Part shown: positions 36,265 to 46,108 of the stretch, in pieces
Layout: each line of letters starts with the position of its first letter
Numbering within the stretch: position 1 is the first letter of the stretch
From: Crocinitomicaceae bacterium
Lineage (GTDB): Bacteria; Bacteroidota; Bacteroidia; Flavobacteriales_D; Crocinitomicaceae
NCBI GenBank assembly: GCA_024643545.1
Contig: JAHEMR010000003.1
Location: 1 to 64,000, forward strand
Direction of reading: 5' to 3'
DNA: 64,000 bases
Position numbers and translations under genes: made by a program
The notes under the pieces: generated by a model
The model's input: only the letters and a program-made list of their open reading frames with translations
What the model was told of the DNA's origin: nothing
Database searches by the model: none

Positions 36265-38910
36265 ATGAAAAAAACCCTTTACTCCGCACTTCTGTTTTTT
36301 AGTGCTTGCCTATTATTTCAAAACAATTTGAATGCCCAAATACTACATACAGAAAGTTTTGATGCAACTCAATTTTTACCCACTGGTTGGGCTACTGTAG
36401 GTACGGCGCCAGATTGGGCACGTTCAACCACTTTTACGGCTCCACTTGTTGGTACTCCTCACTCAGGTGCTGGAATGGCGCGTATGAGAAATCCTTCAAC
36501 TTCCGCGGCGGCCCTTACGGAGGCAATCTCTACACCTGTTTTCGACTTAACAGGACGCGGAACAAACATCGTTCCTGTAAGTTTCTGGATTTACCGAGAC
36601 TCATTGGTTCCTGCTAACATCGATAGCTTAGGAGTTTTCGTGAATACGACAGCAACACTTACAGGCGCTACAAAAATTGGAACGGTTGCGAGAAATCGAA
36701 ATGTCAACGTTCCTGATACAAAAGCATCGAATGGCTGGTATCAATACACCTTTAATATTCCTTCTGCATTTGCAGGGGCTTCGAATTATGTGATTTTCCA
36801 AGGAACCGTTTATGGTCCAACGGCAACAGCAAGAAGAATTTACCTAGACGATGTCGCTTGGTCAGAATTCCCACCCGTTTGTGCTGGAACACCAACAGGT
36901 GGAACAATTTCATCTTCTTCCACTTTAATTTGCGGAGGCAGTGGATCGGCAACATTAACTTTAAATGGTGCAAGTAGCGGTACCGGAATCAGTTACCAAT
37001 GGTATACATCTTCTACACCGAATGGTCCATACGCGTTAATTGGATCTAACTCAACGACTGCATTGACAGGTAATCTGAATGCCAATCAGTACTATTACAA
37101 TATGGTTACGTGTGCTGGTTCAGGACAAAGTTCTTCCAGTGATACCCTGATGATTACCGTGAATCAAAATCCTGCTCCAGTTGTGTCCATCTCCATGGCA
37201 AACGATACGATTTGTCGTTTCGACACCTTGAATTTAACGGCATCTGGTGCAAGTTCTTACCAATGGAGTACAAACGCAAATCCAAATTTAAGTTCTTTAG
37301 CAACCGCAACGGATGTTCCTTTAAATACAACAACGTATACTGTAATTGGTACTGACGCATTGGGTTGTCCATCACAACCCACAACGCAAACAATTGTTGT
37401 TGGACGTCGTCCAAACATCAATGCATTCAACAACTCAAATGTAACCGTATGCGTTGGAGGTTCCTCGATTTTAACTGTCAACGCGACAAGTGGAGTCGGC
37501 GGCGGTGGTGGAGGTGTCACGCTAGCTTACCAATGGAATCCAAATGTTGGCACAACCAATTCGGTGACTGTATCACCAACAGTAACAACGCTTTATACGG
37601 TAACAGTGGTTGGACAATATGGATGCACATCGACGGATACTACAACAGTGAATGTCAATCCAAATGCAATTAGTCCAATCATTTCTGTCACTCCTGATTC
37701 TGTTAGCTTCTGTCAAGGAACAACAGGAAACACCGTAGATTTAACAGCAACATCCAATGTTTCTGGCGCGACTTATGCATGGTCTGCTAGTGCTGGACCT
37801 CCAATTACAGCAACAACAGGTACATTGACGGCTAATGTTGGAAATAATACGGTTACCTATACTGTTACAGGTACTGACCCAGCGAATGGATGTTATTCCT
37901 CCGCTAGTGCAACCATTTATGTGCGACCAGTTCCAAATGTGAACCTTGTTTCTCAAAATACAACTGTTTGTTTGAACGGAAGTGCGGTACTCTTAACCCA
38001 AGTAACGAATACACAAGGTACACCTGTAAATACTTATACATTTGACTGGAATCCAGCAGCAACAAACACCCAAATGATTACCTATGCACCAAGTGCAACG
38101 GGTTATGTATACGTGACGGTAACGAGTCCTTACGGTTGTACAAACAATGACTCACTATTAGTGACCATAGATAATACTTTAACAAGTCCAAGTTTAACAC
38201 TTGCGGCATCAGTAAATTTAATGTGCAGTGATAATATGAGTCCAGTTTTATTAACGGCTACGACAGATGCAGTTGGTGCTTCATACGCCTGGACACCAAA
38301 CTTTATCAATCAAAACATCGATACGATTACGGTTAATCCACAAAACTCAACAAACTACAGCGTTTCAGTAACGGATCAAAACGGATGTACAACGGCTGCA
38401 TCAACTTCTGTAATTATTAGTCCGGCGCCAGTTGCTGGATTTACGTCGGCAAATCTTCCAACGTTGGAGGTAGGCTTTACGAACACTTCAACGAATGCAA
38501 CGACGTACGCTTGGGACTTTGGAGATGGATTCACGAGTAACCTAGCCAATCCAACACATGGATACTTCACAAGCGGTTCCTTCACAGTGACCTTGATCGC
38601 TACGAATGCAGATGGTTGTGATGACACAACGAGTACAACCATTCAAGCGCAAACAACTGGTTTAGAGGAAATCGTTGGTGCTTTTGTACTTTATCCGAAT
38701 CCAACAAATGGAATGTTAACAGTTCAAAACATCAATCACTCCAACGGTACCATGATCATCTACTCAACAACAGGAACGATCGTGTTGCGTTCAGAACTTT
38801 CAAATTCAGATGCCCAACTTGATTTAAGTCAGTTAAATAGAGGTGTCTACTTCATTCAAATTACAAATAACCTCGGTCAATCATCTACGCACCGTGTAGT
38901 AAAACAATAA
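36265..38910 (+). CDS. Secreted choice-of-anchor J / Ig-like / PKD protein with type A T9SS sorting domain
   Basis: ILHTESFDATQFLPTGWATVG...PDWARST; PKD TYAWDFGDGF; C-term FVLYPNPTNGMLTVQN...GVYFIQI. Confidence 0.87.
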   Translation: MKKTLYSALLFFSACLLFQNNLNAQILHTESFDATQFLPTGWATVGTAPDWARSTTFTAPLVGTPHSGAGMARMRNPSTSAAALTEAISTPVFDLTGRGTNIVPVSFWIYRDSLVPANIDSLGVFVNTTATLTGATKIGTVARNRNVNVPDTKASNGWYQYTFNIPSAFAGASNYVIFQGTVYGPTATARRIYLDDVAWSEFPPVCAGTPTGGTISSSSTLICGGSGSATLTLNGASSGTGISYQWYTSSTPNGPYALIGSNSTTALTGNLNANQYYYNMVTCAGSGQSSSSDTLMITVNQNPAPVVSISMANDTICRFDTLNLTASGASSYQWSTNANPNLSSLATATDVPLNTTTYTVIGTDALGCPSQPTTQTIVVGRRPNINAFNNSNVTVCVGGSSILTVNATSGVGGGGGGVTLAYQWNPNVGTTNSVTVSPTVTTLYTVTVVGQYGCTSTDTTTVNVNPNAISPIISVTPDSVSFCQGTTGNTVDLTATSNVSGATYAWSASAGPPITATTGTLTANVGNNTVTYTVTGTDPANGCYSSASATIYVRPVPNVNLVSQNTTVCLNGSAVLLTQVTNTQGTPVNTYTFDWNPAATNTQMITYAPSATGYVYVTVTSPYGCTNNDSLLVTIDNTLTSPSLTLAASVNLMCSDNMSPVLLTATTDAVGASYAWTPNFINQNIDTITVNPQNSTNYSVSVTDQNGCTTAASTSVIISPAPVAGFTSANLPTLEVGFTNTSTNATTYAWDFGDGFTSNLANPTHGYFTSGSFTVTLIATNADGCDDTTSTTIQAQTTGLEEIVGAFVLYPNPTNGMLTVQNINHSNGTMIIYSTTGTIVLRSELSNSDAQLDLSQLNRGVYFIQITNNLGQSSTHRVVKQ

Positions 38911-40028: not shown

Positions 40029-41375
40029 CTATTTCAAAATCACCGCCATTCCCATTTGCAAGCCAATGGATTGATAAGTGTTTATCGAATATCCTGAGAA
40101 AATAACTGACGACAAGGACCTGCGGTATGTAGGTGCAATAGAAAATCGATAATTATCTTTCGTATAACAGAGCTCCAACTGAAGATATCCAGTGGTAGTC
40201 CAATTACTTGCCTGCTCCGCGGCAATCGACGTTAAATTCTCCTGAAGGTAATAACCATCGCGTTTTAACCCACCTCCAATGGAACTTCCAATACTGGCTG
40301 ATAAATCCACCTTGTTCCATGAATGGCGGTATCCAAGGTACAACGGAATGGAAACATATGAATAACGATTCACGCCATCATAAACGATGTTATAGTCATA
40401 TTGCAGTTGTTCACCCCATTCAAAATAATCGACACCTGTTTGGATCAAGAAATGGTTTTTCATCCAACTTGTGCGAAGCGATAAATCGATACTGGATGTG
40501 CTTCGTTCTTGCGCATTTCGAATTTCAGCATATTTTTTAAGGTCCTGCAAAGGAAACGCATTAAAACCTGTAATCTCCTTAACCTCAACTGAAGAACCAA
40601 TTCCACTCATCCCTAAGAAAAACCCAAAAGTTCGCACCCATTTCTCTTTTTCTATAGGTTGAAGAACAGGTGCTGGAAATGCTGGATCGCTACTCGTAGA
40701 ATTTGTTTTAACCGGAAGTTCATTGATGATCGGAGCGATTTCTGGAATCGTTGTTGGCGCAACAACAGCTTGGACTAAACTTTCATCCGTTCTTATTGGT
40801 GCTGATTTAGTAGAAACACTCGCTGATGAAACTTCACTTTTCTCATCTGAAATGAATGAATTTAAATCCTTCGGAGTTTCAGTCAATTCAAAATTTGGAG
40901 TGTACACATTCTCATCAAAAGACTTTGCCGTTTGCATTACCTCTGATTGATTTTTTCTAACGAATCGCGTAATGTTCGCCTTTTCTGGTGAAAGGGAAGG
41001 CATCGTTTTTGTAGCACCTGATTGCGCATTGAAAGAAGCTGATTTGACTTTAGATGCCTCAGTCGTACAATTTTCTTTCGAAGGAACCAACTGTTTACTC
41101 ACCATCGGTTTACTAGTTGGATTGAACGTGTTATGTCCCGTAATTTTAGCCGAAGTTTTTAAAGGTTCGTTTTCGTGCAGAAGTCCAAAAGTGAATCCAC
41201 TGGCTAAAACGATTCCTATAAAGAACCACATGAATACACGTCGTTTTTTCTTTTTCTCTAATAGATCAAGTCGTTGCTCGATGTCCACCAAAAAATCGAG
41301 TGGAATTTCTTCGGTGTTGACCTCTTGAAGGACTCGCTTCACCTTGCGATCGAAATCTTCTTGATTAGCTAACAT
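40029..41375 (-). CDS. Anti-sigma-like single-TM protein with C-terminal outer-membrane beta-barrel
   Basis: N-term cytoplasmic helix plus TM KKKKRRVFMWFFIGIVLASGFTFGLL, long Ser/Thr/Pro linker, C-terminal alternating aromatic strands SYVSIPLYLGYRH...FSIAPTYRRSL. Confidence 0.65.
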   Translation of the reverse strand: MLANQEDFDRKVKRVLQEVNTEEIPLDFLVDIEQRLDLLEKKKKRRVFMWFFIGIVLASGFTFGLLHENEPLKTSAKITGHNTFNPTSKPMVSKQLVPSKENCTTEASKVKSASFNAQSGATKTMPSLSPEKANITRFVRKNQSEVMQTAKSFDENVYTPNFELTETPKDLNSFISDEKSEVSSASVSTKSAPIRTDESLVQAVVAPTTIPEIAPIINELPVKTNSTSSDPAFPAPVLQPIEKEKWVRTFGFFLGMSGIGSSVEVKEITGFNAFPLQDLKKYAEIRNAQERSTSSIDLSLRTSWMKNHFLIQTGVDYFEWGEQLQYDYNIVYDGVNRYSYVSIPLYLGYRHSWNKVDLSASIGSSIGGGLKRDGYYLQENLTSIAAEQASNWTTTGYLQLELCYTKDNYRFSIAPTYRRSLSSVIFSGYSINTYQSIGLQMGMAVILK

Positions 41376-41907
41376 GGTTTTCTAAATTTAATAATTCTTT
41401 TAATTTTTTACGGGCAACTTTTGTATGCCACTTGGAGGTCTGTTCAGAGATTCCAAGTAGCTCACCAATTTCACGATGCGAGTATCCATCTACCACAAAA
41501 AGGTTAAAAACAACTCGAGTGGATTCAGATAATTGAAGCAGCATCTCATTCAAATGTGCTTGATTTAATTCATATTCTACTTCGGGATGAACACCATCAT
41601 TTCCTTCGATGTTGGCGTCGTGTTGGTAAAACGTGTGGTAATTCTTTGAGCGACGAAAATCGTCGATTATTTCATTCGTGATGATGCGCTTAATCCAACT
41701 AAAAAAACGAATGTCCTGATATTTATCTAAATTTTGGATGATTTTCATAAAGGCGTTGTTCACCAATGTTTTGTGTTCTTCCTCGTTTTTTCGGTACCGC
41801 CGAGCAGTTCCAATCAAAACAGGATAGCAAAGTTGATACAATTCCAATTGTGCCCTACGGTCGTAAGCTTGAACTTTTTTCAATAATTCCGCACTTGGAT
41901 CCTGCAT
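41365..41907 (-). CDS. ECF-type RNA polymerase sigma factor
   Basis: DIRFFSWIKRIITNEIIDDFRR; VFNLFVVDGYSHREIGELLGISEQTSKWHTKVARKKLKELL. Confidence 0.9.
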   Translation of the reverse strand: MQDPSAELLKKVQAYDRRAQLELYQLCYPVLIGTARRYRKNEEEHKTLVNNAFMKIIQNLDKYQDIRFFSWIKRIITNEIIDDFRRSKNYHTFYQHDANIEGNDGVHPEVEYELNQAHLNEMLLQLSESTRVVFNLFVVDGYSHREIGELLGISEQTSKWHTKVARKKLKELLNLENHVS

Positions 41908-41983
41908 ATCTCTTCTTCCTCAGTTAAGTTAACGCAATTAATTCGCTTAAGGGGTGCAGTCTTGTAACTTTTTGTCAGCTTAA

Positions 41984-41997: not shown

Positions 41998-42009
41998 AAA
42001 CCTTTGTTT

Positions 42010-42900
42010 ATGCGTTCCTTCATTTTATACTCTTTCCTTCTTATTTCGTCTCGATTCTTTGCGCAAGTCACCTATTCCATGGATGATTATTTCAATGTGA
42101 GTAATCCATCTGCTTTTGCAGAAAAGAAAATATACACTAGTAACACGAGTATGTATTCCAAAATAGGAACAAGCGACAACATCAATAATTTCTTTTCATT
42201 AAAACAACAAGTGGGATCTTTCTCCTTAGGATTGAACAATGAGTATAGTCAACATTCCGAATGGAAAGTGATCTCGAGTACCTTGAACGCCGCGTATAGC
42301 GCAAAAATCAATCGAAACCTCTCCTTGAACTCCGGACTTGGACTGAGTATGCGCCGAGACAACATGTACTTTGGCGACTGCTTGACACCGCCAGTTTCTT
42401 ACTTTACTTTATGGAATCCGGCTTCCTTCTCTGTAAACCTTGGAGTGTCCTTAGTTAGTAAAAAATGGACCTTGGGTCTTGCCGCGAACAATTTAAATCG
42501 TTCGGAAATAACCAACTATCCATACATCTATAGATCTTCTTTTTCCATTGCAACAAATGCCAGCTATCGTTTTGACTTGGACTCAGCTAAACACTTTTCA
42601 CTGACTCCTTCCCTCTATTACCGTTGGGATGTGGAAAATAATTTCAATGAAATGTTCTTTAACCTCATGTTCAAAGCATTTCAGCACCGAACTGGATTGT
42701 TTTCCAATCATAAAAACATCGGGATTTTCTACCAATACAATTTCAAAAATAACCTTTCGATAGGAGCATCCATCAATAATAATTATTCTTTTCTTTCCTC
42801 GAACATATTCAATTCAAATTACCTGTCCGGCATGCTGCGAATTAGTTATGCGCTTTCACCTAAAACGAGTTACAAGATATCTGGAACTCCTTCATTTTAA
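42010..42900 (+). CDS. PorP/SprF-like outer-membrane protein (divergent)
   Basis: Signal peptide, FAQVTYSMDDYFNVSNPSAFAEKK..., beta-barrel pattern; divergent from canonical PorP. Confidence 0.5.
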   Translation: MRSFILYSFLLISSRFFAQVTYSMDDYFNVSNPSAFAEKKIYTSNTSMYSKIGTSDNINNFFSLKQQVGSFSLGLNNEYSQHSEWKVISSTLNAAYSAKINRNLSLNSGLGLSMRRDNMYFGDCLTPPVSYFTLWNPASFSVNLGVSLVSKKWTLGLAANNLNRSEITNYPYIYRSSFSIATNASYRFDLDSAKHFSLTPSLYYRWDVENNFNEMFFNLMFKAFQHRTGLFSNHKNIGIFYQYNFKNNLSIGASINNNYSFLSSNIFNSNYLSGMLRISYALSPKTSYKISGTPSF

Positions 42901-42933: not shown

Positions 42934-44121
42934 ATGAAATTCATGCGCCTACTACTCGTATTCATTCTTTGCCATTGTGTTTCGAACCTTCACGCACAAT
43001 TTTGGCAACAACTACCTGATTTTCCGGGAAATCCACGTGACGATGCCGCCGGATTCAGCATTCAAGACAAGCATTTTTGCGGAACCGGGCGCGACGATGG
43101 ATTCAATTGTACGCGAAATTTCTATCGCTTCAATGCCACACTTCAAGAATGGGAAAATTCCACCCCACTTCCAGACGGCGAAAACCGGCAATATGCCACC
43201 GGATTCGCACACAATGGTATCGGCTACATACTTTGCGGCGACAATTGCAGCGGGAATTTCTTAAATTCCTTTTGGCGTTTTGATCTATCAAACGAACAGT
43301 GGTCCACCCTACCCGCCTTGCCAACATCCGGACGTGCAGGCTGTGTCCATTTCATCATCGGAGATTCCTTATACCTCATCGGTGGACAAAACTCCTCCGG
43401 AATACTAAACGAGGTTTGGCGTTATTCCATCAATTCCCAAGAATGGCAACAAAAAAACAATTTACCCATTCCAGGAATTTGGCGTGGACTCGCTTTTTCA
43501 CATGACAATTTCGGTTATATCTCGGCAGGAAAATCAAGTGCCTCCAGCTGGAATTCGGAAACATGGAAATACGATCCGGTATTGGATCAATGGTCAAATT
43601 TTCCAGCTATTGCATTTGGTGAGCGAACATATGTTGGCACCGTTCAAAAAGACTCCTGCCTATATGTATTTGGTGGCATCGATCCAAATGACCAAACATT
43701 AACTTCTTTTGATAAGATCAATTTGAATTTTTTCAATACCCAGACTCTTCCCGATTTTACCGGTAATCCACGTAAAGGAGGTGTTTGCTTCTCACACGAT
43801 GGAGATTTCTATATTGCTACAGGAATTGCCGGGAACACGCGTTTAAAGGAAACCTGGAAAATTGAAAATGTCATGATTTCAAAGTTGATTGATGAACAAC
43901 AACTGCGCATGTACCCCATCCCAACAATCGATGCGCTGTATCTTCAAGTAGATCCAATCTGCATTGGCGAATTCATTTATGTAATGAATGGAAATGGGTC
44001 CATCGTGCTGATTCACCGCATTCAATCAACTAAGGATAAACTTTCATTGGCACACCTGTCATCTGGACATTACCGTGTAGTTTACAGAAATCATTCAAGT
44101 CCAATCGTTATTGGAAATTAG
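42934..44121 (+). CDS. Kelch-repeat secreted protein with T9SS sorting-like C terminus
   Basis: Repeated FxxxxxGYxxxG / VYVFGG patterns such as IGDSLYLIGGQNSSGILNEVWRYSINSQEW; C-term QLRMYPIPTIDALYLQV. Confidence 0.75.
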   Translation: MKFMRLLLVFILCHCVSNLHAQFWQQLPDFPGNPRDDAAGFSIQDKHFCGTGRDDGFNCTRNFYRFNATLQEWENSTPLPDGENRQYATGFAHNGIGYILCGDNCSGNFLNSFWRFDLSNEQWSTLPALPTSGRAGCVHFIIGDSLYLIGGQNSSGILNEVWRYSINSQEWQQKNNLPIPGIWRGLAFSHDNFGYISAGKSSASSWNSETWKYDPVLDQWSNFPAIAFGERTYVGTVQKDSCLYVFGGIDPNDQTLTSFDKINLNFFNTQTLPDFTGNPRKGGVCFSHDGDFYIATGIAGNTRLKETWKIENVMISKLIDEQQLRMYPIPTIDALYLQVDPICIGEFIYVMNGNGSIVLIHRIQSTKDKLSLAHLSSGHYRVVYRNHSSPIVIGN

Positions 44122-45467
44122 TTCAAGCGCTTTTGGTAGGATTTTCCTTTGTACGAATATGACAATATCCCATCCTTAATAGCCCAATTTGGTTCATTCC
44201 AAATTGTTTCTGTTTTAAAGATGTAGCGCGTCTTTCCGGACAATTGATCCACCTCGTACCACATGAAAGCAAAATTCGTTTCCACAATTAAAAACAAGCG
44301 TTGGGATGCTTCGTCGTAAAATGGGTACTTTGCTTTTTGACTAAAAAAGCGCGGATAGTCAATTGATATGGAGTGACTCGCCTCTATAATTCCGTTTTGA
44401 GCAACAATGGAAACACGTTCGGCATCACAACTCACCACCAGTACTTTTTGTCCCTGCGATTTAATCAGAAAATTATCACCTATCAACAACCCAATTTTTG
44501 CCATATTATTTACCCGGACATTTTGTCTCAAATAAAAGGGGCGTCCAGGCTTAACGGATGGAAATTGCTTTTTGGTATCGCTTTGTCCACTCATGCGCCG
44601 GATGTTTTGATCTTGGTAACGCTGTGCATTGCTTATTGGTACAGGAACTTCTTGGTGCATTTGCGTGTTCAAAGGATTATTCCAACCTGGCGCTGTGGTT
44701 CTCATGAAATAGGCAATTCTTGGCAAGATATTAATGGCAACGACTTGACGGTAAATGGCTTCGTTAAACAGCAATTGTCGGACATCGTAGAAAGCATATT
44801 CCACACATTGATTTCCCGCCATTCCAATTGGACGAAATCCACCTTGCATGCTCAATGTATCCGGGGAAACGGGAAAAAATAGTGAACTTTCCACTGCATG
44901 CGCCACGACCAATTCATGTCCAGATGTGACTCCAACAAATGCTTCGCCATCATTGCTGGTCGATGATTGCAAGTAAAAAATGCCCAAATTTTTCATCACT
45001 GTATCCAAATCAACGCGATTCAAAAGCGTTTTTGGATTTGGATCTCTGCTAAAATAAATGGGAGGCTCTATTGGAAATTCAAGATTCACTGAATGTTCAA
45101 TTGGCGTATACCCTGAGAACAACAAATGTTCATTCCAATAGAATTTCGGTGGGATAATAGTTCCCAATTTTTTCTTGGAAATTGATTTTAATGGTATTTC
45201 ATCCGTTCGAATCGGTAACGAAAAAACCTTCTTTTGTAGACTTTTTTTCTTTTCTGGTTTCGATGAATACCTGAAAAACCCAAGATAAAGTAAAACGAAA
45301 CTGAGACATAGTGTAAGTCCAGCAATCCAAAGTTTTTTCGTTTTTCGGATACGAAGTTTTTTTGAAAGTATACTTCGATCATGAGAATTTGGAACAAAAG
45401 ATTCCTCCTTCCATTGATCTAACAACCATTGGTCAAAGTCCTGCTTGATATCTTCTTGCTCTTTCAT
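44118..45467 (-). CDS. Anti-sigma-like single-TM protein with large periplasmic domain
   Basis: Acidic cytoplasmic N terminus, TM LWIAGLTLCLSFVLLYLGFF; ATGA overlap with the upstream sigma gene. Confidence 0.55.
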   Translation of the reverse strand: MKEQEDIKQDFDQWLLDQWKEESFVPNSHDRSILSKKLRIRKTKKLWIAGLTLCLSFVLLYLGFFRYSSKPEKKKSLQKKVFSLPIRTDEIPLKSISKKKLGTIIPPKFYWNEHLLFSGYTPIEHSVNLEFPIEPPIYFSRDPNPKTLLNRVDLDTVMKNLGIFYLQSSTSNDGEAFVGVTSGHELVVAHAVESSLFFPVSPDTLSMQGGFRPIGMAGNQCVEYAFYDVRQLLFNEAIYRQVVAINILPRIAYFMRTTAPGWNNPLNTQMHQEVPVPISNAQRYQDQNIRRMSGQSDTKKQFPSVKPGRPFYLRQNVRVNNMAKIGLLIGDNFLIKSQGQKVLVVSCDAERVSIVAQNGIIEASHSISIDYPRFFSQKAKYPFYDEASQRLFLIVETNFAFMWYEVDQLSGKTRYIFKTETIWNEPNWAIKDGILSYSYKGKSYQKRLN

Positions 45468-46024
45468 GACTTTTCGATTTGTTGACGGATGAGTTTTCTA
45501 GCCGTTTTAATATGCCAGCGAACAGTTTCAATGGAAATTGTTAATTCCTCTGCAATCTCACTTGGACGCAAATCCTCCCAAAGAAAAAGATTAAAAACCG
45601 TCCTCGTTGCTGGAGGCAACTTGGATAACACCTCCGTTACTTTTATTTTTTCAACCTTGACATCATAGTTTTCATCAAAGTGTGTGTCCTCAGACATTTC
45701 TTTTTGCTCACTGAGCTGAATGGATGAATAATAACGTTTATTTCTTCGGAAATCATCCGTGATTTCGTTTTTTAAAATGACTTTTATCCAAGAAACAAAG
45801 GAGGTGCCTAATTGAAAGTGATCTATGTGATTAACCGCTTTTAGAAACGCATTATTAATCAAGGAAACCTGGTCCTCACGGTTATTTTTATAACGAATCA
45901 CCACATTCATCAATGGAGAAAAACACGCATCGTACAAAGCTAGAACAGCTCCCTCCTCCCCCTTTTGAATACGTTTCAAAAAGGAAGAATCCATTTTCAA
46001 ATTCCCGATGACTGTCTGACTCAT
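45464..46024 (-). CDS. ECF-type RNA polymerase sigma factor
   Basis: TSFVSWIKVILKNEITDDFRRNKRY; TRTVFNLFLWEDLRPSEIAEELTISIETVRWHIKTARKLI. Confidence 0.9.
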   Translation of the reverse strand: MSQTVIGNLKMDSSFLKRIQKGEEGAVLALYDACFSPLMNVVIRYKNNREDQVSLINNAFLKAVNHIDHFQLGTSFVSWIKVILKNEITDDFRRNKRYYSSIQLSEQKEMSEDTHFDENYDVKVEKIKVTEVLSKLPPATRTVFNLFLWEDLRPSEIAEELTISIETVRWHIKTARKLIRQQIEKS

Positions 46025-46108
46025 TCTTTCAATTCAACCATGATTAATGGCACACTGAAAGGTAACGCAAATACGTCAAATTTTTGGGTGGTATTTTTGC
46101 AATTATCG

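Follow-up and report, generated by a model that had tools for sequence, protein, structure and literature searches.

The sigma factor gene and its overlapping partner

The window, i.e., the whole stretch of DNA that was analysed, comprises 64,000 nucleotides of contig JAHEMR010000003.1 from a Crocinitomicaceae genome (GCA_024643545.1). Two genes on its minus strand overlap by 11 bp, the end of an ECF sigma factor gene (41365..41907, 180 aa) running into the start of a gene for a putative anti-sigma partner (40029..41375, 448 aa). The identity of the first product as an ECF sigma factor is secure: it matched TIGR02937 at an E-value of 7.6e-25 and the Pfam models Sigma70_ECF, r2 and r4_2, each above cut-off, and was designated as Das-type by its place in the Das2 clade described below. 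The partner was assigned from the ORF call, alignment, predicted structure and homology of its N-segment. An earlier reading made from the letters of the DNA (hereafter the sequence-only reading) had proposed an ECF sigma factor with an adjacent anti-sigma-like protein, and both open reading frames were indeed found in place. The nearest records to the pair were Crocinitomicaceae and other Flavobacteriales MAGs, the sigma factors of the nearest relatives being 85-96% identical to that of the window; from the titles of these records we infer a freshwater habitat.

In each of the 40 genome-contig loci with a gene related to that of the partner, a gene related to the sigma gene was located immediately upstream on the same strand. 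The two reading frames overlapped by 8-41 bp in 38 of these loci, and in the remaining two (L089 and L100) the partner has a different start call or frame. Across Bacteroidota, 45 of 392 genomes matched the anti-sigma profile, and a sigma factor adjoined the match in 27 of 30 loci retrieved. Both ends of the partner evolve under purifying selection. Mean pairwise identity within the partner family was 43% and 41% at the two ends and 15% in the linker between them. In comparisons with four relatives, dN/dS was, where computable, lowest in the sigma factor (0.02-0.04), intermediate in the N-segment, transmembrane helix and barrel (0.06-0.26) and highest in the linker (0.43-0.58). The recurrence in 40 of 40 contigs, together with the selection on both partner ends, shows that the pairing is not due to chance. 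One broken copy was observed, L081:4001-4648 (JAHEMQ010000008.1), where the anti-sigma frame is interrupted after 215 aa and the sigma gene is intact.

Architecture of the partner protein

Residues 1-46 (41238..41375, minus strand) constitute the predicted cytoplasmic segment, which is homologous to the N-termini of Bacteroidaceae Dma proteins. The segment is basic, with conserved positions at E22, P25, D31, R35-L36-D37 and K41-R45. It is followed by a predicted transmembrane helix at residues 47-66 (41178..41237, minus strand), oriented N-in according to the positive-inside rule. This is the same helix that the sequence-only reading had quoted, and the short cytoplasmic N terminus with one transmembrane helix agrees with our predictions. 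An AlphaFold2 model built on an alignment of 38 family sequences placed helices at residues 4-19 and 26-64. Generic outer-membrane barrel models of Pfam match relatives of the partner, and as a rule proteins of that kind lose their signal by cleavage on export. The 448-aa product could hence be imagined as a barrel of the common sort whose long signal peptide is removed, lying next to a sigma factor by coincidence. We find this hardly credible. In the 38 sequences the helix is preceded by 36-64 residues conserved to the same degree as the barrel, the inner flank carries a mean net charge of +3.9, and A-x-A near the helix end was found in none of the 38. In addition, the N-segment is homologous to the N-termini of Dma anti-sigma factors (see below), and in 38 of 40 loci the partner and sigma genes overlap, which speaks against coincidence. 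The N-terminal helix is thus predicted to stay uncleaved, as the earlier reading requires.

The anchor is connected to the C-terminal domain by a periplasmic linker (residues 67-243; 40647..41177, minus strand), considered disordered from prediction and from its variability in the family; in the AlphaFold2 model residues 64-242 had pLDDT below 50 and no structure. The linker had previously been described as a ~200-aa Ser/Thr/Pro stretch. A long disordered linker, of ~177 aa, was confirmed by prediction, whereas the composition was only roughly right, as the linkers are rich in S, T, K and N family-wide, with P making up 7%. Linker length in the 38 sequences ranged from 104 to 186 aa. An extended chain measures ~0.36 nm per residue and the periplasm is 20-30 nm wide, hence a linker of the minimum length, 104 aa, would reach ~37 nm when extended and could bridge it. 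Being fast-evolving and predicted as disordered, the linker would also tolerate cleavage. The anti-sigma factor might then be routinely cut there, leaving the barrel as a separate outer-membrane protein and regulation to the inner-membrane part only, in an RseA-like manner. Against this, the linker is always long enough for crossing the periplasm, at least 104 aa in 38 sequences, and barrel and anti-sigma segment are kept in one frame in nearly all loci (L081 is broken), and we judge routine cutting to be distinctly improbable.

Residues 244-448 (40032..40646, minus strand) are predicted to form an 8-stranded beta-barrel of the outer-membrane OmpA type. The AlphaFold2 model contains eight long strands within residues 247-447, with pLDDT mostly 85-96. 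Residues 243-448 matched OprF, OmpA, NspA and OmpW at Z of about 14-17 in VIA-align, where weaker rows, with Z under about 10 (PsbO and others), were disregarded as common barrel look-alikes, and Foldseek likewise supported the barrel fold. The in/out hydrophobicity repeat of the strands was equalled or exceeded by only 11 of 2000 shuffles. These results, all predictive, favour the C-terminal barrel-like domain of the sequence-only reading. The fold is also favoured by weak Pfam matches among the 38 relatives (OMP_b-brl_2 in 10, OMP_b-brl in 3); a Pfam/NCBIfam search with the window protein alone yielded nothing useful and no Pfam match, and a PDB sequence search with the partner-family profile found no credible relative. 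The barrels of the closest relatives terminate in ...ILK or ...TLK and not in an aromatic residue, which is an atypical C-terminal insertion signal. Small outer-membrane barrels resemble one another, and barrel similarity alone says little.

Relation to the Dma/Das pairs of Bacteroides

Dual membrane-spanning anti-sigma factors, the Dma class, were described in Bacteroides thetaiotaomicron as Dma1-Das1, Dma2-Das2 and Dma3 (Pardue 2024, doi 10.1073/pnas.2321910121, via PMC13088901). According to the same source, Dma3 carries a sigma factor fused to its N-terminus, and BT_1557 of the dma2 operon, which has the gene order BT_1559-1555, carries DUF4943 (PMC13088901). To distinguish homology from mere resemblance, the das2-dma2 operon was located through DUF4943 (PF16301) in G295 and G287, genomes that belong to a single family. 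In both, a sigma gene is overlapped by 17 bp by a gene for a ~355-aa anti-sigma factor, and genes for the DUF4943 protein, another small protein and an enzyme follow; the order is that reported for BT_1559-1555, and the enzyme gene fits BT_1555. The Bacteroidaceae Dma set was recognized from what the operons contain and from a 16S signature, without reference to species names, and the 35-base signature, which we take to be Bacteroides-type, was present in both genomes. The source genome of the window contains no DUF4943 gene. A family-wide search of Bacteroidaceae gave 29 Dma-type proteins, four of them (L180, L183, L186 and L187) with an ECF sigma factor fused to the N-terminus.

Profile alignment by hhalign of the cytoplasmic plus transmembrane part gave 96.3% (E 1.5e-9) for the window family against Bacteroidaceae Dma; this direct match was short (49-73 columns), with 12% identity in the displayed alignment. 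A bridge via flavobacterial-type intermediates scored 98.7% (window family against these intermediates) and 98.4%. Five other one-TM anti-sigma factors of the same genome scored 0.6-2.6% against the window family, these being single sequences and hence weaker controls. Two of the five, both lacking an obvious barrel, scored about 93% against the N-terminus of Bacteroidaceae Dma, which indicates that the N-terminal module extends beyond the barrel class. Judged from these profiles, the N-segment of the window protein is homologous to the N-termini of Dma anti-sigma factors. A tree of 63 sigma factors placed that of the window inside a clade of 42 rows (support 98/90) together with the sigma factors of Das2 operons. 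Thirty-nine of the 42 rows were barrel-linked. The other three are sigma factors of the source genome whose partner is without a barrel, and the barrel-linked sigma factors hence do not strictly make up a single clade.

Membership of the FecI/FecR group was considered and rejected. Such systems resemble the window pair in combining an ECF sigma factor, a one-TM anti-sigma factor and an outer-membrane signal; however, a TonB-dependent transporter, separate from the anti-sigma factor, provides their sensor barrel. FecI/FecR-type sigma factors of both genomes fell outside the Das clade, and FecR-like N-termini, compared as single sequences, gave no match with the window family (below 3%). The Dma/Das pairs, in contrast, share with the window pair an N-terminal anti-sigma segment with homologous sequence, one transmembrane helix, a long disordered tether and a C-terminal barrel, as well as an adjacent ECF sigma factor of the same clade and a promoter of the operon itself. 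The differences are that the window pair comes from a Crocinitomicaceae-type freshwater MAG and not from gut Bacteroidales, and that the barrels are only distantly similar.

Two further systems can be likened to the window pair by description. In Phocaeicola vulgatus, M0N98_03760/03761 has the same order of sigma and anti-sigma genes, and the anti-sigma factor is predicted to cross the periplasm and to carry an outer-membrane barrel (Evans 2022, PMC9308784). That pair was induced by an antibacterial toxin binding lipid A-core, and its regulon gave longer O-antigen and protection from the toxin (PMC9308784). EcfO and its anti-sigma factor from Bacteroides fragilis (Ndamukong 2013) are a similar ECF pair as PMC9308784 presents them, linked to oxidative stress.

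Predicted promoter and regulon, and the divergent gene

A predicted ECF promoter, CACC-N18-CGTTAACTT, is located at 41926..41956 (minus strand) and starts 49 bp ahead of the sigma start. Of 41 loci, 38 have a CACC-N16..21-CGTTA(N2)TT-like element starting 42-87 bp ahead of the sigma gene, and the element is retained across sigma factors down to about 42% identity. The CGT -10 box is an ECF signature in flavobacteria (PMC9723704). The window sigma factor is predicted to transcribe its own operon from the CACC...CGTTA promoter. Das2-type operons possess a conserved upstream element of their own, with GCGTCTAA as -10 element where the window pair has CGTTAACTT.

Scanning of the genome detected the promoter motif directly before a clear gene start at two places only, the window sigma operon and a second sigma operon of the window, where the motif is at 46059..46090 (minus strand). 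The pattern CACC-N16..21-CGTTANNTT occurred at 10 sites, compared with 15 for the reversed control; seven were inside genes and one stood before a doubtful 88-aa ORF, leaving the two sigma operons. The pattern GCGTTANCTT occurred at 16 sites compared with 47 in the control, and was near a clear intergenic gene start only at the same two operons. A wider regulon was not indicated by promoter pattern, as genome-wide there was no enrichment over the reversed control. Since the motif precedes clear genes only at the two sigma operons, we predict a small regulon with the sigma operon itself at its centre, suggestive of tight self-regulation. The promoter is conserved enough for target prediction, and pairs whose regulon hardly extends beyond themselves could serve as simpler models for the Dma signal and release step.

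Divergently from the sigma operon lies a gene for a 298-aa protein of secreted or outer-membrane type (42004..42900, plus strand), a recurrent neighbour for which co-regulation is possible. A GTTAC element by the sigma promoter was present in 19 of 19 loci with the divergent neighbour and in 1 of 19 without it, related loci among these not being independent. Recognition of the TGTAACTTT element of the divergent gene by the window sigma factor was considered; the element also resembles the housekeeping TAnnTTTG box. The next gene (42934-44121, plus strand) encodes a kelch-repeat protein with a weak match to a T9SS sorting tail. Both genes are conserved beside the sigma operon in many relatives.

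Proposed mechanism

We consider it highly probable that the 448-aa protein and its sigma factor form a pair of the Das/Dma type, the barrel reading the state of the outer membrane and the tether relaying it so that the sigma factor is released. The pairing, the predicted architecture, the homology to Dma/Das and the conserved promoter were computed here, while for anti-sigma activity and envelope sensing we rely on the work in Bacteroides. In unstressed cells, residues 1-46 would keep the ECF sigma factor at the inner membrane, with the transmembrane helix as anchor, the disordered linker crossing the periplasm and the 8-stranded barrel seated in the outer membrane. An altered state of the outer membrane (lipid A/LPS, barrel folding or tether loss) would be passed along the polypeptide and free the sigma factor. 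The release step, at which we can only guess, might be proteolysis in the linker or near the transmembrane helix, or pulling. The freed sigma factor would transcribe its own operon, probably the second sigma operon, and perhaps the divergent envelope gene.

The signal could also be a specific extracellular ligand of the barrel instead of general envelope stress, which is compatible with the Das/Dma reading and changes only what is sensed. R286, E290, G321, E322, N336, Y338 and Y340 are invariant and W320 is near-invariant, and the topology given by strand order would place them towards the barrel's outer half. On the other hand, the published phenotypes of such pairs, vesicles and O-antigen length, are envelope-related, and there is no known ligand; we regard a ligand sensor as unlikely, with a modest chance of being right. 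Returning to the Das/Dma reading, the idea of one polypeptide reporting outer-membrane or LPS status to the sigma factor was right in outline. A single chain with a sigma-binding-type segment, transmembrane anchor, periplasm-length linker and barrel, next to an ECF sigma factor, is predicted and is consistent with the Dma homology; the mechanism as such had already been proposed for Dma in Bacteroides, and the window pair is a new member from a different family and habitat. The Dma wiring of outer membrane to sigma factor is accordingly not a speciality of gut Bacteroides, relatives of these proteins being present also in freshwater Crocinitomicaceae and other families of Bacteroidota.

Other pairs in the genome

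The second ECF pair of the window, ~4 kb from the first, is on the minus strand (sigma 45464-46024, anti-sigma 44118-45467), with a 4-bp gene overlap. Its sigma factor belongs to the Das clade, and the pair has the same two N-terminal helices and the same promoter motif as the first. The anti-sigma factor ends in an apparently soluble beta domain of short strands and not in a barrel; propeller-like folds matched this domain only at weak E-values. We find this second pair to be the most interesting by-product of the analysis. Two further pairs of the genome have a barrel-type anti-sigma factor (L046, G000 C11:3.1-4.9 kb; L047, C11:87.3-89.3 kb), and two more have one without an obvious barrel (L048 and L049), apparently soluble domains being noted at C2:180.8k and C33:62.5k. 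One cytoplasmic anti-sigma module might be mounted on differing sensors, barrels and apparently soluble domains, in one genome, and the two window pairs, which share a motif, may be cross-wired into a single envelope circuit with separate readings of outer membrane and periplasm, a tentative idea that could well be wrong. Elsewhere in the window, the plus strand at 36265-38910 encodes an 881-aa repetitive surface protein, with what look by eye to be PKD/immunoglobulin-like repeats and a T9SS-type C-terminal tail.
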